The notes under the pieces are model-generated. The model worked only from the letters and a program-made list of their open reading frames with translations, ran no database searches and was not told the DNA's origin. A program made the position numbers and the translations under genes. 64,000 bases of DNA from Microbacterium sp. Root180 (GTDB lineage Bacteria; Actinomycetota; Actinomycetes; Actinomycetales; Microbacteriaceae), in the NCBI RefSeq assembly GCF_001428485.1, contig NZ_LMHS01000001.1:248404-312403 (forward strand), written 5' to 3'. Shown piece after piece: positions 31,524 to 50,999 of this stretch; within the stretch, counting starts at the first letter, position 1; each line of letters begins with the position of its first letter.

Positions 31524-34500
31524 ATGACGCACCACCCCGCAGCAGCCCGTGATACCCGTGCCGGCCGATTCCGCCGGCTGACCGCGGCTGCGACCGTGGC
31601 GGTGCTCGCCGTCGGCATGGCCGTGGCCCTTCCGCTGACGGCGGTCGCGGCACCGCCTGTCGCGTCGGACGGCGGCGGCTTCACCGGCATCGACGTGTCG
31701 GCCGGAGCATCCAATGTGCTCGCCTCGGGCAACGGCCAGGTCAGCATCGACGCGTCCAACGTCGCCGGCGTGGAGCTGTACAACGCCACCGCGGTCGCGA
31801 TCCTGCCCGTCGGCGTCACCTATGTGCCCGGCTCGTCGCTGCCCGGGGCTCCGAACGCCGTCGGCGACCCGCTCATCCGCACCTACATTCCTGACCCGGC
31901 CGAGCCGACGGTGACGGCCCAGCTGCTGCAGTGGGCGAACGTCGCCGACCTGCCGGTGGGTGCGGACCTGACTCTCTCCTTCGACCTCGTCGCCGACAAC
32001 GCCCTCTACCCGGTCGGCGCGAGCTTCACGGTCGACGTGGGCGTCTATGCGAACACGAACGAGCGGATCGTTCCGGTGGTGACGATCCCCACCGACGGAA
32101 CGCCGCCCGTCGTCACGCGCGCGACGCACGGCGGCGACGACACGGAGACGCTGACGATCAGCGCCATCCGGCTGACGAAGCGCAACCTCGAGGCCGAAGC
32201 CGAGGTCTACCGCGGGCCGGCCAACGCCACCCGCTACGAGCTCACCGTGGTCACCGCCGACGAAGCCGGCACACAGGGTGCGGTCGTCACCGACCTCGTG
32301 CCGGCGCAGTTCCAGGTGACCGACTGTGCGCTGGGCGACGTCGCGTGCACCTCGGAGATCGTCGAGATCGACGGCGAGACCTTCACCCGCCTCACATGGG
32401 ATCTCGGCGCCATCCCCGCCGAAACCACCGTCCGACTGGAATACCGGGCGTTCGTCGGACTGCAGGAGATCACCGCGCCTGACGGCGTCGCCGACGGCGC
32501 GCCCACGCGCCCCGGCCCCACCGGCACGAGCATCGAGAACACGGCGCAGGTCACCGGAACCTACGGCGGCTCCGTCGTCGAGGGCGGGTCCGCCGAGGTC
32601 ACGGCGACAGCCGACGCGACGGTGCGACTGCTCGACGTCGGTGTGGTGAAGTCCGTCGCCGCCGGTGAGTTCACCGCCGGCGGCACGACGAGATTCACCC
32701 TCGCCCTCCGCACCAGCCAGTACGTCACCACCGGCGACGTCGTCGTCACCGACGCCCTGTCCGACGGACTGTGCCCCGTCGTGCCGGCCGGTGTCCCCAC
32801 CACGGGAGCGTGGCCCGCGGAGTGCCCAGCGCCCGGGAGCACTGCCGACACGGTCGTCGGAGGGACGATGACGAACGTCGTCGCCAACGCCGACGGCACG
32901 TTCGTCGTGACCTTCGCCGTTCCCGGCGGCACGCTGGCGGCGGATGCCGATACCGCGATCGTCTACACCGCCTACATGCGGGCGGCCTACCAGGACGGGT
33001 CGCCCACCTCGACCGGTGACGTCGTCACGAACGAGGTGGAGGTGGAGGGGACCACCAGCCCCGCCGCCGGCAACACCGTCGACACGGGCGACGTCGAGTC
33101 GAGCAACGGCTCCTCGGCCTCGCTGGCCACCTCCGACCTGTCGATGTCGAAGACGGTGTGGAGCAACCCCGACCGGCAGGCGATCACCGGCGCGGGCGGC
33201 GTGGGCGGCGTGACGTGCGCGACGGCACCCGCGGGGGAGTACGTCGCGAGCGACGGCCCGCGTCTGCAGCTCGGCGACCTCGCCTGCTTCCGCATCCGGA
33301 TCGACTTCACCAGCGGCGCCTCCACCCGCAACCCGATCCTGGCCGACTTCCTCCCGCCGGGAACGGAGTTCGTCGCGTGGGCGGAGGGTCCCGGCAACAC
33401 CGCCGACGCCGAGCGCGTCACCACGGGCGCGCGGTGGCTGCTCGGCACCCCCAACCCGGACGGCTCGCGCTACGTGCCCGGGGGCGGGGTCTCCGTCATC
33501 GACATCCTCGCCAGGGTCACGGCGGTTCCCGGTGCCGGCGACGACATCGACATCACCGGAAATCTCGCCAAGCTCCGCTACGTGAGCAGCGAGGGAACGG
33601 TGCGCGCGGCGCGCGACGAGGTCGACCTCTCGCTGGCCCCCACCGTGCCGCTCGGGCTCGACAAGCGCGTGAACGGCGCCGCCAGCGCCGCCGTGCAGGA
33701 GGGGCAGTCGGCCACCTTCACCATCGGTGTCACCCACCAGGGCACCGCGGCCGACGGCAACGCCTATCCGCTCAGCAGCGCGACCGTGTGGGATGCGCTG
33801 CCCGCGGGCTTCGAGTGCGCAGACATCACCGCGAGCACCCCGGCATCCACGTCCTGCGCGACGTCGACGACGGGTCCGACGAGCGGACGCGACGTCGTCG
33901 TGTGGAACCTGAGCGCAGCGGCGCTCGGCGCCGACGGCCTGCTGACCGCCGGCGAGACCGTCACCGTGACCTACAGCCTCACCATTCCGACCCCGCTGTC
34001 GATCTCCTCGTCGCACACCAACGAGGCGGCGGTCACGCTCTACACGGCCCCGACGACCGACGGCACACCGGATTCCGCGGGCGACGTGTCCTTCTTCCCG
34101 GAGAACGACCTCGGCGCCAATCCCGGCATCACCCCGAACGCGCCCGAGGCGAGCGACACCGCGACGGTGACCCTCGCCGACGCGAACGTGGCCAAGCAGG
34201 TGGCCGCCACCGGGGTGAACGGCCCCGGCAACAGCGCCCTGACGCAGGCGACGATCGGCGAGTCGGTGAGCTACGCGTATACCGTCACCATCCCCGCCCG
34301 CACCAGCGTGTTCTCGGGCATCCTCGACGACGGCCTGCCCACCGGCGGGCTTCTCGTGCAGACCGGTGACCCGACCCTCACGACCTCGCCCGCCGGCATC
34401 GCCGTCGGCGCGGGATGCACGGCGGATGCCTCAGAGTTCCGACTCTGCGACGACGGCACCCTCCGCTTCCCGACGACCTGGACGAATTCGACCGCGACTC

Positions 34501-37500
34501 CCGCGGTGTTCACGGTGACGCTGCCCACGCGCGTCGTCGACGTCGCCGGCAACATCCACGGCACGTCGATCCCCAACACGGCGACCTTCCGCAGCGCCCT
34601 CACCGTGAACGGCAGCCTCACCCAGCGGGGCACGGCCTCGGCATCCATCGCGGTCGTCGAGCCTTCCGCCGCACTGGCCAAGACGTCGTCGGCGACCGCC
34701 GTCGCGGGCGGCTCGACCGTCAACTACACCCTCACGGCGACCAACGCGGCCGGCCGGCCGCCGCTGTTCGACGGTGTCGTCGTAGACTGCGTGCCCGCCG
34801 CCCTCGCGGTCGGCACCCTGCCGGGCGCGATCGCCGGGCCGGTCGCCGGCACCGGATCCAACGGCTGCCCCACGGGGACCCAGCGGCTGACGTGGACGCT
34901 CTCGGGACCGCTTCTGGCGGGCGTCGCACAGTCGATCCAGTACCCGGTGACGGTCCCGACGGGCGCCGCGTCGGGACAGCAGTACACCAACAACGCCACC
35001 CTCTCCGGTTCCTCCGTGCAGGGAGCGGTGACCGGCGAGCGGACCTACCAGGCGCTCGCGTCACGGACGATCACCGTCAACCGCGCTTCGCTCGTGAAGA
35101 CGACGTCCAGCGCGACCGTCGTCCCCGGCCAGAGCATCACCTGGACGGTCACCGCGACCGTCCCCGCCAATGTGCAGCTGTTCAACGCGGCCTTCGTCGA
35201 CGTGATCCCGACGCCGTTCGGCAACGCGGCCGCGGTGACGTCGTGGTCGGTCTCGTGCGGCGGCGGCGACGCGGCCTGGATCGGCGACTGCCTGCCGGCG
35301 ACCCTCCTGACCGCGAGTCCTGCGAGCAACCTCGGCGTGTACCTCGGCAACATCGCCCCGGCGGCCGCCTCGCGCACGGTCACCCTGACGCTCACGACGC
35401 GCCTGCCCGCGAACACCACGTCGGTGCAGGGCGCGAACCTCACGAACACGGCGCAGTTCCGCTGGAACTACACCGCGCAGACGCCGCCGACCGCGACCAA
35501 CGCGACGTGGAGCACCAACGTCAGCGCCAGCGCGGTGACACAGGTCCGCGACCCCCAGGTCACGGTCACGAAGGCGGTGAGCACCGCGCAGCCGGCTCAG
35601 GGCGAGACGTTCACCTACACCGTGACCGCGGTCACCACCGCGGGCACCCGCAACGTCCCGGCCTTCAACGTCGCGATCGTCGACACCGTGCCCGCGGGAG
35701 TGGTCCCGCTCGATGCGGCCGGCGACCCGCTCGCGAACGGCGGCAGCACCGTGAGCGGAGGGGTGTGGAACTCCACCGCCCGCACGCTCACCTGGACGGT
35801 CGCCACGCTCGCGCCCGGGGCGGCGAACACCGTCACCCGCACGTATCCCGCGCGACTTGCACCCGCGTCGAGCCTCACCGGCGCCGCGCTCACCAACTCC
35901 GTGCGGCCCCAGTCGTGGACGTCGCTCGACTCGGCCGGCAAGACCTACGGACCGGGCACGGCGGCGACGGCGACCGTCACGCCGCAGTTCCCGCTCATCG
36001 CCACCGCCAAGGCCCAGGTCTCACCGGCCAACCCGGTGTACATCGGCCAGGAGGTGTCGTTCCGTCTCGAGCTCACGAACACCGGCGGGGGAGCCGCCGC
36101 GTCGCTCGACGCCGTCGACACCCTCCCCGCGGGCTGGACCTATGTGGCCGACTCCGCCGCCGTCACGGTGCGCACCGGGAGCGCGGTCGCCGTCGAGCCG
36201 ACGATCACCGGCCAGACGCTCCGCTGGAACGACGTGGGCGGGAGCTCCGTCGACCTGCTCGCCAACGAGCGCATCGTCGTCACCTACCGTGCGGTCGCCG
36301 GTCCGTCCGCCCAGGTCGGCCTGAGCGTGGCGCACACCAACACCGCCGTCGCCGCCGATGTCACCGATGCGACCGGAGGCACGTCCTACAACGGCGGCGC
36401 CGGCAGCTACATCGGCGCCTCCGGCACGGCCACGGCGCGGATCGCCGCGGCGGACCTGCGCATCACCAAGACCGCGAACGACGACTTCGTCGCGGGCGGA
36501 TCGGGCACCTACACGCTCACGGTCACGAACGCGGGACCGGATGCCGCCACCGGCGTCACCGTCGTCGACACCGTCACCGCTCCGACCGGCGTCACCGTCG
36601 TCGGCGCCACGGGAACCGGCTGGTCGTGCTCGGCGCCGTCCGACGGTTCGATCACGTGCACACGCACGAACGCCGCCGACACACTCGCGTCGGGCGCTTC
36701 CTGGACGCTCACGGTCACGGCTGCGGTCGCGGCATCCGTCGTCGACGGCACGCAGATCCCGAACACGGCGACGGTCTCGGCACGCACCGAGGATCGCACC
36801 CCCGGCAACAACAGCGCCTCGGCGACGGCGACGGTGAGGGCGCAGGCCGACCTCGCTGTCACCAAGACGCCGACGCGCACGACCGCCACCGCCGGAACGG
36901 CGCTCGGCTGGACGATCTCGCTCGTCAACCTCGGACCATCGGTCTCGCGAGGATCCGCCGGGTCGCCGATCGTTCTCACCGATGTTCTTCCGTCCGCGGT
37001 CACCGGTGTGCAGGTGGGCACTGTCACGGACGGCGTGGACTGCGAGATCACGGGCGGAACGCTCACCTGTGAGGTGCCCTTCGACCTCGCCGTCGGCGAC
37101 GGCGTCTCGGTCGCCTTGGACGGGACGATCGCCTCGTCTGCGGCACCCGGCTCCACGATCAGCAATACCGCGCGGGTCACCCCGGTGACCACCGATCCTG
37201 TCGCCGGCAACAACTCGTCGACCGCCACGACCACCGTCGACGTGGTGGAGGCGCTGTCGGTCTCCAAGAGCATCATCGCGCCGCAGCCGCCCGTGGTGGT
37301 GCCCGGGCAGACACTCACCTACCGCATCGCGGTGACCAACGCCGGGCCGTCGGACGCCCGTGGGGTGACCGTGCTCGACGACCTCCCGGTGGGCTTGACG
37401 TTCTCGTCCATCGTCGCGGGCGGGTCAAGCTGGACGGCGACGGCCCAGGGCGGCGACATCCTGTTCATGCTCTCGGGCAACCTCGCCGCCGGCGCGTCGA

Positions 37501-40500
37501 CGCAGTTCGACTTCGTCGCGACGGTCGGCGCGGGCGTCATCGGCGACCTCACCAACACGGCCGTGGTGTCATCCACGTGGCGGGCGAACCAGGACACCGC
37601 GTCGGTCACGACGGGATCCACCGCCTCCTCCGACCTCGCCCTCACCAAGACCGTTGATGCGGCAGAGATCGTCGCGGGCGGCGACACCGCGGCGACCTAC
37701 ACGCTGTCGGTGGTCAACCTCGGACCGTCCGACGCCGTCGGGTCGATCACCGTGACCGACCTGCTTCCTGCCGGTATGAGCCTGGTCGACGCGCCCCCGG
37801 CAGGGTGCGAGGTGACCGAGGTGTCGGGACGCGTGCAGGTCCAGTGCGACAAAGCAGACGGACTGGATGTCGCGGAGGACCCGTGGACCATCGAGCTGCC
37901 CGTTCTCGTCGACGCCGACGTCACCGATTCGGCGCTCACGAACAGCGCGACCGTCACCTCGCCGACGCCCGACCCCGACCTGACGAACAACACCGACACC
38001 GCCGCACTGCCGGTCCTCCAGCGCGCCGCGCTCACCGTCACCAAGGAGGCCGCGCCGACGGTCGTCGCCGGCGAGCAGGTCACTTGGACGGTCACGGTCG
38101 CCAACGACGGCCCGTCCGACGCGCAGGCCGTCACGCTGACCGACGACCTCGACGATCGCCTGACACTCGTGAGCGCCGAATCCGAGACCGACAGGGTCGA
38201 CTGCACCGGCACGACCGAGGTGGTCTGCACCATCGGCACGCTGCCCGCCGGGGAATCGGTCGTCATCGAGATCGTCGCCACCGTGGCCTCGTCGGTGCCC
38301 GACGGAACCAGCATCCCGAACACCGCTTCCGCACAGTCGACGACGATCGACCCGGTCACGGGTGAGCCCGCGACCGCCGAGGGCGAGGACGCCGTCGAGG
38401 TGATCGCCGTGACGGCGCTGACCCTCGTGAAGCAGGCCGTCGAAGACGTGGTCGACGCCGGCGATGTGGCGTCGTTCACGTTGCGCCTCGTCAACGACGG
38501 GCCGTCGGATGCCGCAGACCCGGTCACGATCGTCGACACGCTGCCCGCGGGCATGACCTACCTCGCCGCGTCGACGTCCGGCGGACCGGGCGCGTGGGAC
38601 TGCGTCATCGACGGACAGGTGCTCACGTGCGAGCTCACCGACGAGGGCGATGTCGTCACGCTGGCGGCGGGCGCGACCGCACCGCTGCTCGCCGTGTCGG
38701 CGACGATCGGCGCGGACCAGAGCGCCGGTACGCTCACCAACACCGCTGTGGCGTCGTCGCCGTCCTCGCCCGACGGTGCGGAGGACGAGGCACCCGTCAC
38801 GGTCGTCACGCACGCCGATCTGGAGCTTGTCAAGTCGCACGACCCGAGCGCCGTGCCCACGGCCGGCCTTCCGTTCGAATGGACGCTCGCGGTGACGAAC
38901 CACGGTCCGTCGGACTCGGTCGCGACGGCCGATGACCCGATCCTCGTGCGCGACACGCTGCCCGAGGGTGTGACCCTCGCGGGAACGCCTGCGTCCGGCG
39001 GTGTCGACACCGTGTGCACGGTGGTCGATCCCGGCGCCGATCCCCAGGTGGTCGAGTGCGAGCGCACGACGACGCTGCCGACGGGGGAGACGCTCGAGCT
39101 GACGCTCGCCGTCGACATCGCCGAGACGGCGTCCGGTGCCCTCACCAACACGGCGACGGTCTTCCCGGGACTCACCCCGCAGCCCGACGGCAACCCGTGG
39201 CCCGACACCGACACGGACACGATCACGGTCATCGAGGTCGCCGACCTGTCGATCGAGAAGGAGACCGTCACCGATCCGGTGGTGGCCGGTGGCGCGATCT
39301 CCTGGACCGTGACCGTCCGCAACCTCGGTCCGTCCGACTCCGACGCGTCGCCCGCAGCGCCGATCACCGTCGTCGACACGCTGCCCGCCGGCGTCACGGG
39401 GGCGACCGCCTCCGGCGAGGGCTGGGACTGCACGCCGCTCGCGCTCACCGACGATGGGCGTGAGCAGGTCGAGTGCACGCGCGACACGACGCTGCTGGTC
39501 GAGGCTGCGCCCGAGATCACGGTGACGGGCGTCGTCTCGGCATCGGTGCAGGGCTCGATCACGAACATCGCCGTGGTCACGCCTGGGCTCACGCAGCAGC
39601 CGCAGGACGGCCCCGGACCGGACGAGGCGACCGCGACTGACGAGGTGACCGAGAGTGCCGATCTGGCGCTCACGAAGACGATCGCCCGCACCATCACCGC
39701 GGGTGGGACCGGCGAGTACCGGCTCAGCATCGTCAACCTCGGCCCGTCCGACGCGCGGGGCGTCGTCATCACCGACACGCTTCCCGCCGGACTGAGCTAC
39801 GCCGGGATCGCCGTCTCGACGGACGGCTTCACATGGAGCTGCGAGCCCGACGAGATCGAGCCGACCACCGTCGTCTGCGACCTCGCCGAGCCGATTCCGG
39901 CCGGTGAGACGATCGTGCTCGATGTGACGGTCGACGCGGAGTCCCAGTTGGAGGGCGACCTCGAGAACACTGCCGTCGTGAGCGCGGCCACCCCCGATCC
40001 CGACCTCGAGAACAACTCGTCGTCGGTATCCGGCACGGTGAGCGAGCTCGCCGATCTCGCGATCGTCAAGCAGGCGGTCGGAGAACCGCGGGTGGGGGAG
40101 CAGTTCAGCTACACGCTGACGGTGACCAACGCCGGGCCCTCGGATGCTCGTGGCATCGTGATCGAGGATGCCGTGCCTGCGCAGCTCACCGTCGACGCGA
40201 TCGACGCGGGTACCTGGACGTGCGCCGTGGTTCCCGCCGAAGGGGCGCCCACGGACATCACGTGCCTCCGGCCGCAGCTCGCGTCGGGCGGCACCGCGCC
40301 GGTGATCACCGTCACCGTCACGGTGCTCCCCGCGGCCTACCCGGCCGTGTCGAACACCGCGACCGTCACGGCGGCCACGCCGGAGGATCCGGACACGCTC
40401 GCCGACAACACGTCGACGGTCACCTCCACCGTCCCCGCGCTCAGCAGCCTGTCGATCACGAAGGAGCTCACCTCGACGCTGTACGCCGGCTTCACCGGGG

Positions 40501-40928
40501 CCTACACGATCACCGTCACGAACGGGGGCCCGACGGCCGATCCCGGCCCGATCACGGTCACCGACGTGCTGCCGTCGGGGCTGACGTACCGCAGCGCGAC
40601 CCTCGACGGGGTCGCGACCACCTGCGAGGTCGCCGGGCGCGAAGTGACCTGCACGGTCGGTCCGCTGGAAGCGGGGGAGAGCACGGTCCTCGTCCTCACC
40701 GTGAACGTGGCGGCGGATGCCTCGGGATCGCTCCAGAACACCGCGACGGTCTCCTCGGTCGCCGACCCCGACAGCCCCTCCGCCACGGCGACGGGCAACG
40801 TGGACCGCTCGCTCCTCGCGGCAACCGGAACGGCGCTCGGCCTGCTTCCGGCGATGGCGGTGCTCCTGCTGCTCCTCGGGCTGTACCTCGTGCGTCGCGC
40901 GCGGCGCCGGGAGATCGTCGAGCCGTAG
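31524..40928 (+). CDS. Giant secreted DUF11-repeat surface protein with LAXTG sorting signal
   Basis: This 3,134-residue cell-surface protein takes 15% of the window. A long signal peptide (residues 1 to about 48, ending near AVAAPP) precedes a region of divergent beta-sandwich repeats to about residue 1640. At least eleven DUF11-type repeats of 127-141 residues follow, each marked by N-x-GPSDA/S, then a DTLPAG/DxLP segment and NTA near the end. The first of these motifs lie near residues 1669, 1801, 1937 and 2064, and the last near 2999. The C-terminus has LAATG at 3098-3102, a hydrophobic helix and RRARRRE: a cell-wall anchor for a class E (LAXTG) sortase. No enzymatic domain was recognised. 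It is probably an adhesin, stalk or S-layer-like filament. Confidence 0.92.
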   Translation: MTHHPAAARDTRAGRFRRLTAAATVAVLAVGMAVALPLTAVAAPPVASDGGGFTGIDVSAGASNVLASGNGQVSIDASNVAGVELYNATAVAILPVGVTYVPGSSLPGAPNAVGDPLIRTYIPDPAEPTVTAQLLQWANVADLPVGADLTLSFDLVADNALYPVGASFTVDVGVYANTNERIVPVVTIPTDGTPPVVTRATHGGDDTETLTISAIRLTKRNLEAEAEVYRGPANATRYELTVVTADEAGTQGAVVTDLVPAQFQVTDCALGDVACTSEIVEIDGETFTRLTWDLGAIPAETTVRLEYRAFVGLQEITAPDGVADGAPTRPGPTGTSIENTAQVTGTYGGSVVEGGSAEVTATADATVRLLDVGVVKSVAAGEFTAGGTTRFTLALRTSQYVTTGDVVVTDALSDGLCPVVPAGVPTTGAWPAECPAPGSTADTVVGGTMTNVVANADGTFVVTFAVPGGTLAADADTAIVYTAYMRAAYQDGSPTSTGDVVTNEVEVEGTTSPAAGNTVDTGDVESSNGSSASLATSDLSMSKTVWSNPDRQAITGAGGVGGVTCATAPAGEYVASDGPRLQLGDLACFRIRIDFTSGASTRNPILADFLPPGTEFVAWAEGPGNTADAERVTTGARWLLGTPNPDGSRYVPGGGVSVIDILARVTAVPGAGDDIDITGNLAKLRYVSSEGTVRAARDEVDLSLAPTVPLGLDKRVNGAASAAVQEGQSATFTIGVTHQGTAADGNAYPLSSATVWDALPAGFECADITASTPASTSCATSTTGPTSGRDVVVWNLSAAALGADGLLTAGETVTVTYSLTIPTPLSISSSHTNEAAVTLYTAPTTDGTPDSAGDVSFFPENDLGANPGITPNAPEASDTATVTLADANVAKQVAATGVNGPGNSALTQATIGESVSYAYTVTIPARTSVFSGILDDGLPTGGLLVQTGDPTLTTSPAGIAVGAGCTADASEFRLCDDGTLRFPTTWTNSTATPAVFTVTLPTRVVDVAGNIHGTSIPNTATFRSALTVNGSLTQRGTASASIAVVEPSAALAKTSSATAVAGGSTVNYTLTATNAAGRPPLFDGVVVDCVPAALAVGTLPGAIAGPVAGTGSNGCPTGTQRLTWTLSGPLLAGVAQSIQYPVTVPTGAASGQQYTNNATLSGSSVQGAVTGERTYQALASRTITVNRASLVKTTSSATVVPGQSITWTVTATVPANVQLFNAAFVDVIPTPFGNAAAVTSWSVSCGGGDAAWIGDCLPATLLTASPASNLGVYLGNIAPAAASRTVTLTLTTRLPANTTSVQGANLTNTAQFRWNYTAQTPPTATNATWSTNVSASAVTQVRDPQVTVTKAVSTAQPAQGETFTYTVTAVTTAGTRNVPAFNVAIVDTVPAGVVPLDAAGDPLANGGSTVSGGVWNSTARTLTWTVATLAPGAANTVTRTYPARLAPASSLTGAALTNSVRPQSWTSLDSAGKTYGPGTAATATVTPQFPLIATAKAQVSPANPVYIGQEVSFRLELTNTGGGAAASLDAVDTLPAGWTYVADSAAVTVRTGSAVAVEPTITGQTLRWNDVGGSSVDLLANERIVVTYRAVAGPSAQVGLSVAHTNTAVAADVTDATGGTSYNGGAGSYIGASGTATARIAAADLRITKTANDDFVAGGSGTYTLTVTNAGPDAATGVTVVDTVTAPTGVTVVGATGTGWSCSAPSDGSITCTRTNAADTLASGASWTLTVTAAVAASVVDGTQIPNTATVSARTEDRTPGNNSASATATVRAQADLAVTKTPTRTTATAGTALGWTISLVNLGPSVSRGSAGSPIVLTDVLPSAVTGVQVGTVTDGVDCEITGGTLTCEVPFDLAVGDGVSVALDGTIASSAAPGSTISNTARVTPVTTDPVAGNNSSTATTTVDVVEALSVSKSIIAPQPPVVVPGQTLTYRIAVTNAGPSDARGVTVLDDLPVGLTFSSIVAGGSSWTATAQGGDILFMLSGNLAAGASTQFDFVATVGAGVIGDLTNTAVVSSTWRANQDTASVTTGSTASSDLALTKTVDAAEIVAGGDTAATYTLSVVNLGPSDAVGSITVTDLLPAGMSLVDAPPAGCEVTEVSGRVQVQCDKADGLDVAEDPWTIELPVLVDADVTDSALTNSATVTSPTPDPDLTNNTDTAALPVLQRAALTVTKEAAPTVVAGEQVTWTVTVANDGPSDAQAVTLTDDLDDRLTLVSAESETDRVDCTGTTEVVCTIGTLPAGESVVIEIVATVASSVPDGTSIPNTASAQSTTIDPVTGEPATAEGEDAVEVIAVTALTLVKQAVEDVVDAGDVASFTLRLVNDGPSDAADPVTIVDTLPAGMTYLAASTSGGPGAWDCVIDGQVLTCELTDEGDVVTLAAGATAPLLAVSATIGADQSAGTLTNTAVASSPSSPDGAEDEAPVTVVTHADLELVKSHDPSAVPTAGLPFEWTLAVTNHGPSDSVATADDPILVRDTLPEGVTLAGTPASGGVDTVCTVVDPGADPQVVECERTTTLPTGETLELTLAVDIAETASGALTNTATVFPGLTPQPDGNPWPDTDTDTITVIEVADLSIEKETVTDPVVAGGAISWTVTVRNLGPSDSDASPAAPITVVDTLPAGVTGATASGEGWDCTPLALTDDGREQVECTRDTTLLVEAAPEITVTGVVSASVQGSITNIAVVTPGLTQQPQDGPGPDEATATDEVTESADLALTKTIARTITAGGTGEYRLSIVNLGPSDARGVVITDTLPAGLSYAGIAVSTDGFTWSCEPDEIEPTTVVCDLAEPIPAGETIVLDVTVDAESQLEGDLENTAVVSAATPDPDLENNSSSVSGTVSELADLAIVKQAVGEPRVGEQFSYTLTVTNAGPSDARGIVIEDAVPAQLTVDAIDAGTWTCAVVPAEGAPTDITCLRPQLASGGTAPVITVTVTVLPAAYPAVSNTATVTAATPEDPDTLADNTSTVTSTVPALSSLSITKELTSTLYAGFTGAYTITVTNGGPTADPGPITVTDVLPSGLTYRSATLDGVATTCEVAGREVTCTVGPLEAGESTVLVLTVNVAADASGSLQNTATVSSVADPDSPSATATGNVDRSLLAATGTALGLLPAMAVLLLLLGLYLVRRARRREIVEP

Positions 40929-43241: not shown

Positions 43242-43460
43242 ATGATCGAATCGACTGAGGACGGCATGACCGCGGAGGACAAGCGTCGCGATCAGCTCCT
43301 GCGCGCGGAGAATTCGACCGAGGCGGACGCGGCGCCGCGCATCGTCGTGTCGCACGGTCCCGACGCAACCCGCATCGACATCGCGGACACCGCCGCGGTC
43401 CGGCCGGGTCCCGGCCCAGGGATGGGTGAGGACTCGGAATCGACGCCCGAGCAGCCCTAG
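43242..43460 (+). CDS. Small hypothetical protein, 72 residues
   Basis: No family was recognised. The short, acidic protein (MIESTEDGMTAEDKRRDQLL..., with a Gly/Pro/Glu-rich C-terminus) is probably partly disordered. Its stop is one base before the GTG of the acyl-CoA dehydrogenase homolog, so it looks like the first gene of that operon or a leader peptide for it. ATG 43242 is chosen; GTG 43233 is in frame. Coding status is moderately supported. Confidence 0.5.
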   Translation: MIESTEDGMTAEDKRRDQLLRAENSTEADAAPRIVVSHGPDATRIDIADTAAVRPGPGPGMGEDSESTPEQP

Positions 43461-43461
43461 C

Positions 43462-44562
43462 GTGAGCGCCGCACGACCGCCGTCGACCCCGGAGCCCGCG
43501 CTCGGGCGGTCGTTCCTCTCCGACCGCGATGCGGCTCTCGCCCCATCGACATCCGGATGGTCGGATGCTGCGGGCGTCGTCGTCGGCGACATCCCGTCCG
43601 CCGTCGCATGGTGTGTCGACGTCGGACGAACGGCGCCGCGGATCGGCGAGGGCGCCACCGCGGATCTCTGGGAGATCCTCGCCGACACGGCGTACCGGGA
43701 TGTCGCGCTCGCGCGCATGCTCGAACCCCACCTCGACGCGCTCGGCATCCTGACGCAGGCGGGAACGGACCTCGATGGTGACCGCGATCCGTGGGGGCTG
43801 CGGTCGGTCGGAGTCGACGCCGGTTCGTCGTGGGGTGTCTTCGCCGCCGAGGGAGCCGGTTTGAGACTCGAGGCGCACGAGACGGCGTCGGGGTGGATCC
43901 TGGAGGGAACCAAGCCGTGGTGCTCGCTCGCCGCGCACCTCACCCACGCGCTGGTCACCGCCTTCGTCGGAGCGGAGCGACGCCTCTTCGCCGTCTCGCT
44001 CGGGCAGCCGGGCGTCGCGGCGCACGACGGACCGTGGATCGCACGCGGACTGCGCGACGTCGTCAGCGCGTCGGTCGACTTCGCCGGTGCGGCGGCGGTG
44101 CCCGTCGGCGACGTCGGGTGGTACCTGCGCCGTCCCGGATTCGCGTGGGGAGGCATGTCGGTCGCTGCTTGCTGGTGGGGCGGGGCTCTCGGGCTGCGCG
44201 ATGCGCTCGCCGTCGCCGCCGCTTCGGAGCGCGCCGATCAGGTCGCCCTGGTTCATCTCGGACGGGCGGATGCCGCGCTGTGGGCCGCCCGCGCGGTGCT
44301 GCGCGAAGCGGCTGACCTCGTCGATCGCCGCAGCACGACCGACATGCGGCTTCTCGCCGAGCGCGTCCGAGGGACCACGGCGGATGCGGCGACCCGGGTC
44401 CTGTCCGAGTCGGATGCCGCACTGGGCCCGCTGCCGTTGGTCGCCGACGAGCGGCACGCCCAGCGTGTCGCCGACCTTCACCTCTACCTCCGGCAGCATC
44501 ACGGAATGCGCGACTCCGCGCGGCTCGGTCGACTCGTGCTCGAGGCGGAAGGCTCGCCGTGA
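43462..44562 (+). CDS. Acyl-CoA dehydrogenase-like flavoprotein
   Basis: This 366-residue protein has acyl-CoA dehydrogenase architecture: a helical N-domain, a mid beta-domain (GWILEGTKPWCSLAAHLTHALV, the family's G-x-K-x-W/F-x-S block) and a helical C-domain ending in the LHLYLRQHHGMRDSARLG segment. It is somewhat short and the N-terminal region is divergent. No catalytic Glu could be assigned with confidence, so the substrate may not be an ordinary acyl-CoA. It starts a three-gene block with 4-base overlaps (GTGA to the PIG-L fusion), which argues for a single pathway with the deacetylase, methyltransferase and glycosyltransferase. Confidence 0.85.
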   Translation: MSAARPPSTPEPALGRSFLSDRDAALAPSTSGWSDAAGVVVGDIPSAVAWCVDVGRTAPRIGEGATADLWEILADTAYRDVALARMLEPHLDALGILTQAGTDLDGDRDPWGLRSVGVDAGSSWGVFAAEGAGLRLEAHETASGWILEGTKPWCSLAAHLTHALVTAFVGAERRLFAVSLGQPGVAAHDGPWIARGLRDVVSASVDFAGAAAVPVGDVGWYLRRPGFAWGGMSVAACWWGGALGLRDALAVAAASERADQVALVHLGRADAALWAARAVLREAADLVDRRSTTDMRLLAERVRGTTADAATRVLSESDAALGPLPLVADERHAQRVADLHLYLRQHHGMRDSARLGRLVLEAEGSP

Positions 44563-45941
44563 GCGGCGGGTTCAGCCACCTCGACCCGGGTACTCCGGAG
44601 ACGCAGTGGCAGGACGCCCTCGGCCGGCGCACCGTCTCCGACCTGGATGCCGACCTCGACTTCCTGGTCGTGGTCGCCGCGCACCCCGACGATGAGACGC
44701 TCGGGGCGGCAGGCCTCATGTCCCGCGCTGCGAGGAGCGGCATCCCGATCGCCGTCGTGGTCGCCAGCGACGGCGAGGGTTCGCATCCCGCGTCGCCCAC
44801 TCACACTCGGCAGGAGTTGGCTCGGCTGCGGAGGATCGAGACAGCGCGCGCGGTCTCGCTGGTCGCGCCGGAAGCCGACGTCCGGTTCCTCGGCCTGCCC
44901 GACGGCGAACTCGACACGCACTTGGCCGCACTGGGCGCGGGCGTCGCGCTCGTCGTCGACGGACCGGCAGCCGCGACGGCCGGCCGGGTGCTGGTCGCCG
45001 CGCCGTGGTCGGGCGACGGGCACCGCGATCACCGCGTCGTCGCGGAGGTCTGCGCTGCCGTCTGCGCCAGTCGCGGCATCCGGCATGTCGGCTACCCCGT
45101 ATGGGTCTGGCACTGGGGGAGCACGGAGGATCTGCCGTGGTCCCGGGCGCGCGCGCTCCGGCTCGATCCCGAGGAGGCGGACCGGAAGCGCCGGGCGATC
45201 GCGTGCCACACGACCCAGATCGAGCCCCTCTCGTCGCAGCAGGGAGACGAGGTCCTGCTGCACGCGGGCATGCGATCCCATTTCGAGCGCGATGTCGAGA
45301 TCTTCCTCGTCGAGGGCGAGCCGGGCGAGAGCACGGCCGGTCTGGACGCCGCGTGGTTCGACGACTTCTACGACCGCAACGGCGACGACCCCTGGGGCTT
45401 CGAGACCCGGTGGTACGAGGAGCGCAAGCGCAGCATCCTGCTCGCGTCGCTGCCCGAGCGGCAGCTCGGCCGCGTGCTCGAGGTGGGCTGTTCCACCGGT
45501 GTCCTGACCGCTGAGCTTGCCGAACGCGCCGATGCGGTCGTGGCGATGGACCCAGCCCAGATCGCCGTGACGCGGGCACGCGAGCGAATCGGCGACGATC
45601 CTCGCGTGACCGTGCTGCGCGGAACAGCCCCCGACGATTGGCCCGAGGGTGAGTTCGACACGATCGTGCTGTCGGAGGTCGGCTACTACCTGTCCGCGTC
45701 CGACCTGAACCGCCTGCTCCACCGGGTGCGGGGGTCGCTCAGCGAGCGAGGCTGCGTGGTCGCGTGCCATTGGCGGCATCCTGTCGCCGAGTACCCGCAG
45801 ACCGGTGACGACGTGCACGACGTCCTGCACGAGCTGATCGAGTGGCAGACGCTGGTCACGCATCGCGAACGCGACTTCGTGCTCGACATCTTCGCGCCGC
45901 ACACGGCGAAGTCCGTGGCTGAACGCGAGGGTCTCGTATGA
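44559..45941 (+). CDS. PIG-L deacetylase fused to a NodS-like SAM methyltransferase
   Basis: This 460-residue two-domain enzyme combines functions that are often separate. Residues about 25-240 are a PIG-L/LmbE zinc deacetylase with AHPDDETLGAAG (H42-E46) and the metal-binding GHRDH (H155, H158). Residues about 255-455 are a class I SAM methyltransferase closest to NodS: DPWGFETRWYEERKRSILLASLP, LEVGCSTGVLT (from Glu308), then IVLSEVGYYL and VVACHWRHP. PIG-L enzymes remove acetyl from N-acetylglucosamine units; NodS methylates a deacetylated sugar amine. The fusion therefore suggests sequential N-deacetylation and N-methylation of one substrate (inference). The start is GTG 44559, overlapping the previous stop. 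Confidence 0.88.
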   Translation: MSGGFSHLDPGTPETQWQDALGRRTVSDLDADLDFLVVVAAHPDDETLGAAGLMSRAARSGIPIAVVVASDGEGSHPASPTHTRQELARLRRIETARAVSLVAPEADVRFLGLPDGELDTHLAALGAGVALVVDGPAAATAGRVLVAAPWSGDGHRDHRVVAEVCAAVCASRGIRHVGYPVWVWHWGSTEDLPWSRARALRLDPEEADRKRRAIACHTTQIEPLSSQQGDEVLLHAGMRSHFERDVEIFLVEGEPGESTAGLDAAWFDDFYDRNGDDPWGFETRWYEERKRSILLASLPERQLGRVLEVGCSTGVLTAELAERADAVVAMDPAQIAVTRARERIGDDPRVTVLRGTAPDDWPEGEFDTIVLSEVGYYLSASDLNRLLHRVRGSLSERGCVVACHWRHPVAEYPQTGDDVHDVLHELIEWQTLVTHRERDFVLDIFAPHTAKSVAEREGLV

Positions 45942-46663
45942 CCCGCCCCGCTGCCGAGGCGATGGTCGTGGTCGTCCCGGTCCGGAATGAGGCGGAGCTG
46001 CTCCCACGCAGCCTGCGCGCACTCACGGTCGCGGTGGAGTCCGCCCGCGACGCGCAGCTGCAGTGCGAGGTCCGCATCGTGCTGGATGCTTGCACCGACG
46101 CCTCCGGTGCCATCGCCGCCGGCTTCGACTTCACGATCCTGGAGTGCGACGCGGTTCGTGTCGGTGCCGCCCGGCGCTTCGGCGTCGCGGCAGGTCTCCG
46201 CGGCCTCGAGGACGTCGCCGCGGATCGCGTGTGGCTCGCGAGCACCGATGCGGATTCGCAGGTGCCACCCCACTGGCTCGTCCACCAGCGCGCGGTCTCC
46301 TGCGCGGCCGACGTCTACCTCGGGACCGTGCGACCGGACTTCGGCGACCTCGCGCCGATCCAGCGGGACCGGTGGCGCCGGACGCACCCGCGCGGACGTG
46401 TCAATCGCAACGTGCACGGGGCGAACCTCGGCGTGCGGGCGCAGACCTACCTCGATGCCGGAGGCTTCGCATCGATCGGCGAGCATGAGGACGTCGACCT
46501 CGTCGCTCGCTGCCGGGCGCTGGGCGCCGTCGTCGTCGGCGATGACGACGCCGAGGTGCTGACGTCGGGTCGATTCGTCGGGCGCACACCGGGCGGCTAC
46601 GCGGAGTTCCTTCGCCGGCAGTCCGCGGACCTCGTCGGCGACGCGACCGCCGAGGCTCCCTGA
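45938..46663 (+). CDS. GT2-family glycosyltransferase
   Basis: This 241-residue GT-A glycosyltransferase has an N-terminal VVVVPVRNEAELLPRSLRAL, a DxD-like STDADSQVP near residue 105 and the later GGFASIGEHEDVDLVARCRALG acceptor-side motif (ED). It lacks membrane helices. It is coupled to the upstream fusion gene by an ATGA overlap and ends the operon. It could attach the sugar that the PIG-L domain deacetylates; donor and acceptor are unknown. Confidence 0.88.
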   Translation: MTRPAAEAMVVVVPVRNEAELLPRSLRALTVAVESARDAQLQCEVRIVLDACTDASGAIAAGFDFTILECDAVRVGAARRFGVAAGLRGLEDVAADRVWLASTDADSQVPPHWLVHQRAVSCAADVYLGTVRPDFGDLAPIQRDRWRRTHPRGRVNRNVHGANLGVRAQTYLDAGGFASIGEHEDVDLVARCRALGAVVVGDDDAEVLTSGRFVGRTPGGYAEFLRRQSADLVGDATAEAP

Positions 46664-48783: not shown

Positions 48784-49482
48784 TCACCGCAGTTGCGCGA
48801 AGGCCTCGGCGTCCCTTGTGGGTCCGACGACGAGAATCGTGTCGCCCGCCTCGAGAACGGTGGTGTTGTCCGCGTTCGTCCAGGCCTGATCGCCGTGCTG
48901 GTAGGCGGCGATGGTGATTCCGTGGCTCCGTCGGATGTTCGTGTCGCCCAGCGCGACACCCTGGATCCTCGCCGGAGCCGGGGCCTTGACGAGGGCGTAG
49001 CCCGGTGCCACCTCGATGTAGTCGAGTGCGGCGCCGCGAACGAGGTGCGCGACGCGGCGACCCATGTCCTTCTCGGGGTAGATGACGTGATGGACGCCGA
49101 GTTGCTCGAGAATCTGGCCATGTCGGTCGTCGACGGCCTTCGCCCAGATGACGGGGATGTTCATGCTCAGCAGAACCGAGCAGGTCAGGATCGATGCCGA
49201 GATGTCGCCGCCGATCGCGACGACCACCCGATCGAACTCGTCGATCGCCAGTTGGTTCAGCGCCTCGACCCTCGTCGAATCTGCGCGGACGACCTGAGTC
49301 AGCTCACCGTTCAGCGACTGAACGAGTTCTTCGTCCACATCGATCCCCAGTACCTCCGTCCCGCCGGACATGAGCTCGAGCGCCAAGGCGCTGCCGAAGC
49401 GGCCGAGGCCGATCACCGCGACGGAGTCGGCCTCGGCGATACGACGTGACGTGTCGTTGGAGAAGATCGAGAACTTAGCCAA
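48784..49482 (-). CDS. ktrA: KtrA/TrkA-type potassium channel regulatory subunit
   Basis: This 232-residue RCK protein has an N-terminal Rossmann RCK_N domain with VAVIGLGRFGSALALEL and VLGIDVDEELVQSL, and a C-terminal RCK_C (TrkA-C) domain from about residue 145 (GYALVKAPAPARIQGVALGD). It gates the KtrB channel in response to ATP/ADP or c-di-AMP. Translation starts at TTG 49482 and overlaps the ktrB stop by eight bases, so synthesis is coupled to the channel subunit. Confidence 0.93.
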   Translation of the reverse strand: MAKFSIFSNDTSRRIAEADSVAVIGLGRFGSALALELMSGGTEVLGIDVDEELVQSLNGELTQVVRADSTRVEALNQLAIDEFDRVVVAIGGDISASILTCSVLLSMNIPVIWAKAVDDRHGQILEQLGVHHVIYPEKDMGRRVAHLVRGAALDYIEVAPGYALVKAPAPARIQGVALGDTNIRRSHGITIAAYQHGDQAWTNADNTTVLEAGDTILVVGPTRDAEAFAQLR

Positions 49483-50851
49483 TGGCGGGCCTCTCTTTCG
49501 GGAATTCGTAAAGGATCCGGCGCTCGCGCAGGGCGATCGCGGAACCCAGGGTCAATGGGCCCAGCCTGCCGAGGAACATCAGGGCGACGAGCACGATCTG
49601 TGCGGGTTCGGACAAGTCTGCGGTGATACCTGTGGAGAGACCGACCGTCGCGAACGCCGAGACAGATTCGAAGAGGGCGCGGTCGAGTTCCTCGCCGGTC
49701 AGGAGCATGAGGAGGCCTGCACCGGAGACGACCGCTGCCACCGCGAGCAGCACCACAGTGATCGCCTGACGGTGCACCGCGCGGGAGAGTCGCTTGCCGA
49801 AGATGTTCACCGCTCCATCACCGCGCAGCTCGGTCATCATGATGAAGAACAGCACGGCGAAGGTCGTGACCTTGATGCCGCCGGCTGTGCCCGCGGGTCC
49901 GCCGCCGATGAACATCAGCACGTCCATTCCGAGCCACGTTTCGTCGTACATGGCGCCGATGTCGACAGAGTTGAAGCCGGCGGTGCGGGTTTGGACGGAC
50001 TGGAAGAATCCCGCCAGCACCCGTGCCCACGGATCCAGGTTCCCGAACGTGGCCGGGTTGTTCCACTCGATCAGCGTGATGTACGCGGTCCCAGCGATCA
50101 GAAGCACGCCCGACGCCCACACCACGATCTTCGTGTTCATCGACCAGTGCAGGGGACGGCGGAACTCCTTGCGGAGCTGGAAGAGGACGGGAAATCCCAA
50201 CCCGCCGAGGATGATCGCCGCCGCGATCGGCAGGCAGATGAACGGATCGTCGACGAACCCCATGAGGTTGTCGCTGTACAGCGCGAAGCCTGCATTGTTG
50301 AATGCGGAGACGGCGTGGAAGAGGGCGAACCACGACGCTTCGCCCAGCGAATACCCGTATCCCGCGAGGAAGCGGACGAACAGCATCCCGAACGTGACCG
50401 CTTCGATGATGAGTGACGTGAGGACGATGCCGCGTGCCACCCCGCGGACGTCGTCGAGGCCGACTGATTTCGCTTCCGCCGCGGTGTTCAGCCGTGAGCG
50501 CACGGTGAACTTCCGTGCCAGCACCAAGCCCACCAGAGCCGCGAAGATCATGATCCCCAGTCCGCCGACCTGGATCAGAAGGAGGATCACGACCTGTCCG
50601 AACGGCGACCAGAATGTCGGAGTGTCGACCACCGTCAGGCCCGTCACACACACGGCACTCGTCGAGGTGAACAGTGCCTGCACGATGGTCGCGCCGCCCG
50701 GGCCCGTCTTCGAGATCGGAAGCATCAGCAGGGCGGTGCCCACCACGATCGCGAGTCCGAATCCGCCTGCGACCGCCTGGGCCGGATGAAGTCGGAACCG
50801 GGCCCGTCGCGAACGTGCCCGCTCGGCCCTCGACCGACGCCGGATGCTCAC
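49475..50851 (-). CDS. ktrB: KtrB/TrkH-type potassium uptake channel subunit
   Basis: This 458-residue membrane protein has the four M1-P-M2 repeats of the Trk/Ktr superfamily; selectivity-filter segments are visible as SAVCVTGLTVVD, SAFNNAGFALYS, RTAGFNSVDIG and SAFATVGLSTGI. With KtrA it forms a potassium importer. The N-terminus is very Arg-rich. GTG 50851 is taken as start; TTG 50857 two codons earlier is the alternative. Gene order ktrB–ktrA is standard for Ktr operons. Confidence 0.93.
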   Translation of the reverse strand: MSIRRRSRAERARSRRARFRLHPAQAVAGGFGLAIVVGTALLMLPISKTGPGGATIVQALFTSTSAVCVTGLTVVDTPTFWSPFGQVVILLLIQVGGLGIMIFAALVGLVLARKFTVRSRLNTAAEAKSVGLDDVRGVARGIVLTSLIIEAVTFGMLFVRFLAGYGYSLGEASWFALFHAVSAFNNAGFALYSDNLMGFVDDPFICLPIAAAIILGGLGFPVLFQLRKEFRRPLHWSMNTKIVVWASGVLLIAGTAYITLIEWNNPATFGNLDPWARVLAGFFQSVQTRTAGFNSVDIGAMYDETWLGMDVLMFIGGGPAGTAGGIKVTTFAVLFFIMMTELRGDGAVNIFGKRLSRAVHRQAITVVLLAVAAVVSGAGLLMLLTGEELDRALFESVSAFATVGLSTGITADLSEPAQIVLVALMFLGRLGPLTLGSAIALRERRILYEFPKERPAIG

Positions 50852-50999
50852 CGCCAAACTGTAGCGCCCTTGCCCGCCCCATGCCTGGCTCCCCGACGGC
50901 AGAGGCCCCGCGATCCCTGAGACCGCGCTGCCTGCCCATCAAGTCTCGTCATCCTCGGAAGGTGACCCGATTCGGCCACGATGGATGGACAATCGTGTC

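Follow-up and report, generated by a model that had tools for sequence, protein, structure and literature searches.

A four-enzyme gene set with a NodS-type methyltransferase in Microbacterium sp. Root180 and its predicted pathway to an N-methylated amino-sugar glycoconjugate

Introduction

In rhizobia, the nodB, nodC and nodS genes combine an N-deacetylase, a glycosyltransferase of family 2 (GT2) and an N-methyltransferase of the NodS family. A similar combination is encoded by an operon of Microbacterium sp. Root180, which lies in a stretch of 64,000 nucleotides (contig NZ_LMHS01000001.1, positions 248,404 to 312,403 of the forward strand; hereafter the window) and consists of three overlapping genes, encoding a flavoenzyme of the acyl-CoA dehydrogenase fold, a fusion of a PIG-L deacetylase with a NodS-type methyltransferase dependent on S-adenosylmethionine (SAM), and a GT2 enzyme. 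An equivalent operon has been reported in Acinetobacter baumannii, where ACICU_02432–02435, annotated as a glycosyltransferase, a SAM methyltransferase, an LmbE protein and an acyl-CoA dehydrogenase-related protein, are marked as one operon (PMC5660220), and where the four genes adjoin blsA (PMC6240043). The accessible parts of these two reports give no function to the four genes. Our literature search found no function for the gene set, a weakly supported negative, as the term "PIG-L" is perhaps badly indexed and the older name LmbE led to the Acinetobacter papers.

On balance, we think that the three genes are one example of a four-enzyme pathway that is widespread in bacteria and would lead to an amino-sugar glycoconjugate, N-methylated and perhaps N-oxygenated, that serves in stress protection. 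The evidence that leads to this reading is the linkage of the four families, the replacement of one deacetylase by another in the same position, and the kinship of the methyltransferase to NodS.

Organization and conservation of the gene set

The three open reading frames (ORFs) lie on the plus strand at positions 43462–44562 (flavoenzyme), 44559–45941 (fusion protein) and 45938–46663 (GT2), and are chained by a GTGA overlap and then an ATGA overlap. A 72-residue ORF (43242–43460) ends one base 5′ of the flavoenzyme ORF, for which an alternative GTG start is present at 43426, within the 72-residue ORF. The coordinates and junctions agree with an earlier sequence-only reading of this DNA, which had described an overlapping three-gene operon preceded at one base by the small ORF; its assignment of the middle gene as a PIG-L–NodS-like fusion with HPDDE and HRDH motifs, and of the last gene as a GT2 enzyme, is likewise borne out by Pfam scores above cut-off (PF02585, PF05401 and PF00535).

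With a threshold of E ≤ 1e-20, 43 of 149 genus genomes encode a relative of the fusion protein; for the flavoenzyme, the count is 43 of 148. The two lists name the same 43 genomes, and in all of them the two genes are at most about 60 bases apart (coordinates compared by eye). The gene set is therefore all-or-none within the genus. The genus loci include that of Microbacterium testaceum NS220, the closest named relative identified. Each of the 31 loci fetched from the genus encodes the deacetylase and the methyltransferase as a fusion; 30 of them contain all four families, and the exception (L107) has no GT2. The identity of the fusion proteins within the genus is 44–59%, which, together with the patchy presence of the operon, suggests that it has been lost or transferred within the genus.

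The set extends well beyond close strains, although the sequence-only reading had named confinement to them as a point that would speak against it. Matches are present in 31 of 296 Actinobacteriota genomes (E ≤ 1e-20) and in 51 of 72,556 plasmid records (1e-15), some of them chromosome-sized, with Acinetobacter (19) and Deinococcus (7) joined by Nostoc, Cupriavidus, Bradyrhizobium and others. The methyltransferase of Deinococcus radiodurans is likewise encoded on a plasmid record. Proteobacteria, Deinococcota, Cyanobacteria and other Actinobacteria carry mostly unfused versions, with the deacetylase and methyltransferase encoded by separate adjacent genes; in one locus (L070), from the same taxonomic order as the genus, the two are also fused. 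The pathway is thus present in at least four bacterial phyla, and the occurrence of the same gene set in 43 of 149 genus genomes and in other phyla makes the operon more than a chance arrangement.

Loci with a PIG-L-type deacetylase are referred to here as class A, and loci with a CE4 deacetylase, which were found through their methyltransferase, as class B. Our own profiles detect the full set of four families in 25 of the 28 class A loci fetched from outside the genus, the exceptions being L036 (no GT2), L082 (no methyltransferase or GT2) and L132 (no flavoenzyme or PIG-L). Presence within a locus does not always mean a single operon: the PIG-L gene of L135 is about 4 kb away on the opposite strand, and the GT2 gene is convergent in L035, L038 and L134. 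The usual order is flavoenzyme, PIG-L, methyltransferase and GT2, rearranged in L072, L074, L085 and L115. Further fusions join the GT2 to the flavoenzyme in Methylobacterium (L133) and a reductase to the GT2 in L084. On an Acinetobacter soli plasmid (L033, 7950–8962), the flavoenzyme gene is broken into two ORFs; other copies are intact.

The deacetylase and its replacement

The PIG-L part of the fusion protein comprises residues 1–256 (44559–45326), as delimited by an alignment of 29 sequences and a profile search of the PDB, and scores 76.1 bits against a cut-off of 28.2 for PF02585. Two putative metal-site motifs are conserved: AHPDDE at residues 41–46 (44679–44696), in which His42, Asp44, Asp45 and Glu46 are invariant in all 29 sequences, and DGHxDH at residues 153–158 (45015–45032), in which His155, Asp157 and His158 are equally invariant. 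The profile matches TT1542, diacetylchitobiose deacetylases, BshB and MshB in the PDB. The NCBIfam equivalog models are all missed, with scores and cut-offs of 27.0 and 224.35 bits for MshB, 24.4 and 277.15 for Mca, 29.8 and 182.5 for BshB1, and 37.9 and 195.25 for BshB2, and the window proteins are far below the cut-off of the MftF model. A scan of viral contigs with the PIG-L alignment returned 59 loci with weak PIG-L matches of 20–50% identity.

In class B, the deacetylase position is occupied by an unrelated enzyme. The 21 class B loci, of which L037 and L081 are probably one and the same plasmid, belong mostly to one family that seems to include Rubrobacter, and none of them contains PIG-L. 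Nineteen encode the flavoenzyme and 18 the GT2; a CE4 deacetylase is encoded by 20, all but L119, which begins at a contig end. In most cases the CE4 gene lies immediately 5′ of the flavoenzyme gene, and its product in L088 is assigned to PF01522 by Pfam. Rhizobial NodB proteins score 121–140 bits against the class B CE4 profile, and the best PDB relatives of this family are chitin and peptidoglycan deacetylases; since CE4 profiles score well in general, a special kinship to NodB is not claimed. That a single slot next to the same methyltransferase is filled by either of two unrelated deacetylases speaks most strongly for removal of an N-acetyl group before N-methylation, and the exchange of PIG-L for a NodB-type enzyme supports such a deacetylate-then-N-methylate step as predicted from the sequences.

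Class B loci carry additional features. In 18 of the 21, a gene of 338–401 residues that forms one cluster is located 3′ of the methyltransferase gene; it encodes an NAD(P)H/FAD oxidoreductase according to Pfam (L088) and annotation (L037), and is the reductase fused to the GT2 in L084. The GT2 ORF is 511–571 residues long in eight loci (L075, L077, L078, L080, L087, L114, L118 and L120), and the C-terminal half has no Pfam match in the two that were scanned, L078 and L080.

The methyltransferase and the glycosyltransferase

The methyltransferase part of the fusion (45330–45938) was delimited by an alignment of 34 sequences and a PDB profile search. A DDPW sequence in its N-terminal NodS-like region (residues 276–279; 45384–45395) retains Asp277, Pro278 and Trp279 in all 34 sequences, and the predicted SAM-binding motif EVGCSTG (residues 308–314; 45480–45500) has invariant Glu308 and Gly314. 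The domain scores 50.5 bits against a cut-off of 24 for the NodS family PF05401, a loose model that 48 of 149 Actinobacteriota pass, and only 53.8 bits against a cut-off of 300 for NF041650, the NCBIfam model of true nodulation NodS. In the PDB, the profile matches 4isc best (1.9e-63), NodS itself second-best (3ofj, 9e-32) and phosphoethanolamine methyltransferases at 6.6e-18; we take 4isc to be a structural-genomics entry from Pseudomonas syringae. The 14 best PF05401 matches in the 149 Actinobacteriota (E ≤ 3.3e-12) are 13 operon genes and a gene of L112, which has a CE4 gene beside it and no flavoenzyme gene; the other matches, the best of them at 1.5e-9, lie mainly in the general methyltransferase core.

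In a tree, 36 operon enzymes, three NodS proteins, two trifunctional rhizobial proteins and one further methyltransferase are set apart (96/96) from six generic methyltransferases. The NodS and trifunctional proteins form a pair in this tree (98/90), the bootstrap of which had not settled, and the pair may lie either within the operon family or beside it; in an earlier tree with two distant outgroups it was placed inside. The methyltransferase is close kin of NodS. The further methyltransferase (L223; G139:C1:515313-515864), which is NodS-like and falls inside the operon clade, comes from a genome with no match to the query P0002 at 1e-20. Residues 268–440 of the fusion also match the PADLOC model mad2 (3.8e-17), probably owing to a related methyltransferase domain in that model; a role in anti-phage defence was rejected, as nothing other than the methyltransferase region matches. 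An AlphaFold2 model of the fusion, aligned with the M. testaceum homolog only, has a mean predicted local distance difference test score (pLDDT) of 61.

The GT2 enzyme (45938–46663) is a predicted soluble protein of 241 residues that scores 36.0 bits against a cut-off of 23.3 for PF00535. DAD and ED motifs are found in an alignment of 30 sequences, and the nucleotide-sugar/metal motif DAD (residues 104–106; 46247–46255) has Asp104 and Asp106 invariant in all 30.

The flavoenzyme

The flavoenzyme (43462–44562) is poorly recognized by Pfam, in which only Acyl-CoA_dh_M is matched, at 22.7 bits and below its cut-off of 33.3. The name "acyl-CoA dehydrogenase homolog" given in the sequence-only reading thus holds for the fold and finds no support in Pfam. 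A profile of 37 sequences was compared with the PDB, and the best 60 of 84 matches were considered. The top matches are DszC (5.4e-26), "type 2" proteins (4e-25), methanesulfinate monooxygenase (7.2e-22) and TdsC (7.5e-21), followed by the dehydrogenases 2dvl (2.6e-19) and 4u83 (5.7e-19), and then, amid many dehydrogenases, by 3m9v (6.7e-18), 4kcf (9.9e-18) and the nitrososynthase 3mxl (5e-15). The first two of these three we take to be the sugar N-oxygenase KijD3; KijD3 and the nitrososynthase oxidize amino sugars.

DszC, methanesulfinate monooxygenase and TdsC lead the best dehydrogenase by 5 to 22 bits. The invariant histidine of the family aligns with DszC His97, and a near-invariant serine aligns with DszC Ser163. 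Among the matches considered, the dehydrogenase alignments end at or before profile position 316, ahead of a C-terminal D-L-x-x-[YF]-L-x-Q block that contains no invariant glutamate; the catalytic glutamate of acyl-CoA dehydrogenases was placed here by its presumed position. The protein is predicted, with reasonable though far from full confidence, to be a class D flavin monooxygenase, and by analogy with the sugar N-oxygenases we would guess that it acts on nitrogen. The tailoring of an acyl group, as the sequence-only reading had it, is disfavored by this profile, which is closest to flavin monooxygenases with dehydrogenases close behind. In Deinococcus, two flavoenzymes (L036, 5092–7464; L134, 4911–7259) carry an N-terminal extension of about 420 residues without a convincing Pfam match.

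Genomic neighborhood

To examine the surroundings of the gene set, 18 annotated plasmid regions, 16 from the 51-record set and two others, were chosen for spread; two further regions bear no annotation and are not among the 18. Genes for trehalose or GlgE, catalase or Ku/LigD are present in nine of them; on a wider list that adds CsbD, PRC-barrel, ferritin-like, and general or universal stress names, the count rises to 13, leaving two Deinococcus regions and those of Paracoccus, Sphingobium and Jiella without such genes. In Comamonas, the four genes lie between otsA and otsB. Two 40-kb control stretches of the same plasmids, with 64 features, contain no genes of the stress list. The operon in the window is not itself adjoined by a stress gene of this kind (by eye).

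The A. baumannii expression data lend independent support to a link with stress: ACICU_02432–02435 are reduced 31- to 62-fold in two colistin-dependent mutants, and the same 33-gene list includes trehalose-6-phosphate synthase and phosphatase and a catalase (PMC5660220). In Frankia, deacetylases, glycosyl transferases and an acyl-CoA dehydrogenase are induced by salt, and the accessible part of that report contains nothing that links these genes to one operon (PMC5563000).

Two neighbors noted in the sequence-only reading turn out to be accidental. Relatives of the 72-residue ORF, whose product has no Pfam match, are found in 67 of 99 genus genomes, many of them without the operon, and in the 19 operon-holding genomes with such a relative (G000 aside) it is on another contig or at least 139 kb from the operon (by eye); outside that sample, the L106 locus contains one at a distance of about 1.3 kb from the GT2 gene. 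The ORF thus occurs independently of the operon and is not a leader of it. Of the 31 genus loci, only that of the window has the TetR–ABC–permease unit, which had been proposed as an exporter, downstream of the operon; no called gene in the fetched loci is related to the permease, and relatives of TetR are encoded in two loci, about 6 kb from the operon.

The window has a GC content of about 70%, and the source genome comprises 3.35 Mb in five contigs. No ORF around the operon in the window is a nod gene by annotation or by match (neighbors by eye). Elsewhere in the window, a 3134-residue ORF (31524–40928) with many repeated domains and a hydrophobic, anchor-like C-terminus probably encodes a surface protein, and two minus-strand genes resembling those for TrkA/TrkH potassium uptake are located about 2 kb 3′ of the operon (48784–50857); both were assessed by eye.

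Proposed pathway and alternative explanations

In the proposed pathway, the soluble GT2 would extend a small acceptor or a short glycan by an N-acetylamino sugar, most likely N-acetylglucosamine (GlcNAc), the PIG-L domain would remove the N-acetyl group, and the fused methyltransferase, in the genus part of the same polypeptide, would N-methylate the freed amine. The flavoenzyme, probably a class D flavin monooxygenase, would then oxidize the product, perhaps at the same nitrogen, as amino-sugar N-oxygenases do; the end product is probably a glycoconjugate or solute that protects against stress. The sequence-only reading had already joined glycosyl transfer, N-deacetylation and N-methylation in a single pathway, and this core has held up well, given that the set spans phyla, that CE4 replaces PIG-L and that NodS ranks second among the solved relatives of the methyltransferase.

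Several points weigh against this pathway. Its substrate, product and phenotype are predictions from gene content, as are the order of reactions, the choice of GlcNAc, the N-oxygenation and a stress role in the source organism. The GT2 is not NodC-like: it has 241 residues against about 450, and its profile finds one of three NodC proteins, at 30.9 bits. The best dehydrogenase is at most 22 bits behind in the flavoenzyme profile search, the AlphaFold2 model of the flavoenzyme, made with the M. testaceum homolog only, is too poor to decide (mean pLDDT 45), and no flavin reductase gene was seen in the class A operons read (by eye), a reductase gene being found in class B operons only. As for stress, the names were picked after the regions had been viewed, the regions were chosen by the authors and the control is small; two of the 18 regions are near-identical Acinetobacter plasmids, and the Paraburkholderia region has neither flavoenzyme nor PIG-L. 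Among 100 neighbors at 11 actinobacterial loci, no family was matched by more than two, with sigma-70, STAS and SpoIIE at two each (best 25 of 125 families). The A. baumannii genes, moreover, fall in colistin-dependent mutants and not under a tested stress (PMC5660220).

Of the competing explanations, the decoration of a cell-envelope polysaccharide or lipid-linked glycan, in place of a free small molecule, is the least unlikely. It would account for the additional glycosyltransferases encoded next to the operon in Sphingobium, Novosphingobium and Jiella, the UDP-galactopyranose mutase in Deinococcus gobiensis and the setting of the rhizobial trifunctional protein among glycosyltransferases and an ABC transporter, and one of the A. 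baumannii mutants with altered expression has a disrupted lpxC (PMC5660220). The GT2, however, is short at 241 residues, no polymerase or flippase recurs by the operon (by eye), and the MFS transporter nearby in A. johnsonii and Bradyrhizobium fits the export of a small product equally well; most PIG-L enzymes whose function is known act on small conjugates. We regard it as improbable that the flavoenzyme works as a genuine dehydrogenase, desaturating an acyl chain or some other carbon substrate, with the operon then making an acylated glycolipid. Such an enzyme would fit the acyl-CoA dehydrogenase fold, the scores above cut-off for Acyl-CoA_dh_N in homologs from Methylobacterium (L133) and Deinococcus (L134 and L036), and the small distance of the best dehydrogenase from DszC; but seven of the eight best PDB matches are DszC, TdsC, methanesulfinate monooxygenase or "type 2" proteins and only the eighth is a dehydrogenase, the dehydrogenase alignments stop short of the C-terminal block, in which no glutamate is invariant, and no acyltransferase or acyl-CoA ligase recurs in the annotated plasmid regions (by eye).

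A low-molecular-weight thiol pathway akin to that of mycothiol or bacillithiol is very unlikely. The pairing of PIG-L with a glycosyltransferase recalls MshA/MshB and BshA/BshB, and BshB and MshB are among the PDB matches, but the MshB (27.0 bits against 224.35), Mca, BshB1 and BshB2 models are widely missed, the operon has no ligase and its glycosyltransferase is GT2 and not GT4; on the equivalog scores, this pathway was rejected. There is hardly any chance that the genes are an accidental or lineage-specific cluster of unrelated tailoring enzymes: the operon is patchy in the genus and its flanking genes vary, but the cross-phylum set, the component fusions and the shared list of 43 genomes refute such a view.

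If the proposed N-deacetylation and N-methylation chemistry holds, at least four phyla would have in common an amino-sugar metabolite that has no name as yet and is perhaps linked to withstanding desiccation, osmotic or oxidative stress, and the deacetylation and subsequent N-methylation in Nod-factor synthesis would be one instance of a wider logic; the two unrelated deacetylases in one slot offer a clean, testable prediction. A bolder extension, which we consider doubtful, is that the genes form an unrecognized, widely transferred stress pathway to a hydroxylamine- or nitrone-like, N-methylated and N-oxygenated conjugate acting as a redox or desiccation protectant, from which rhizobial NodB–NodS was recruited. 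The plasmid records examined label the flavoenzyme an acyl-CoA dehydrogenase and often attach "nodulation" terms to the methyltransferase; both names are probably misleading.

Comparison with known systems

An N-methylated amino sugar has a precedent in actinobacteria, as TMG-chitotriomycin of Streptomyces carries N-methylated glucosamine on a short chito-oligosaccharide; the likeness is one of products. MshB, BshB and diacetylchitobiose deacetylase share the PIG-L family and its metal motifs with the fusion protein, while the MshB and BshB cut-offs are missed and the partner genes of those systems are absent from the operon. The best PDB relatives of the flavoenzyme are class D flavin monooxygenases (DszC, TdsC, methanesulfinate monooxygenase, KijD3 and nitrososynthase), its own substrate being a prediction; the known amino-sugar N-oxygenases act on nucleotide sugars in antibiotic pathways. 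The A. baumannii operon encodes the same four products, with PIG-L and methyltransferase as separate proteins.

A rhizobial trifunctional glycosyltransferase/SAM methyltransferase/polysaccharide deacetylase (L140, 5408–8410; relative in L142, 5510–8422) joins a GT2 and a NodS-type methyltransferase in one protein of 970–1000 residues, and its methyltransferase part groups with NodS. Unlike the operon, it has no flavoenzyme gene annotated beside it in either locus, and its putative deacetylase part is assigned by the annotation of L140 only, the class B profile giving no match.

The operon differs from the rhizobial nod genes in having no NodA, in the PIG-L that class A uses for CE4, in its short, non-NodC-like GT2, in its additional flavoenzyme and in the lack of nod genes around it. 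The sequence-only reading had regarded a Nod-like logic as new in a soil actinobacterium; the logic stands in part, but the set is not confined to such organisms and an operon of this kind is already in print for A. baumannii. Class B operons, like nodB–nodS, join a NodB-type (CE4) deacetylase with a NodS relative. The operon extends the Nod-type deacetylate-and-methylate logic in a new variant.

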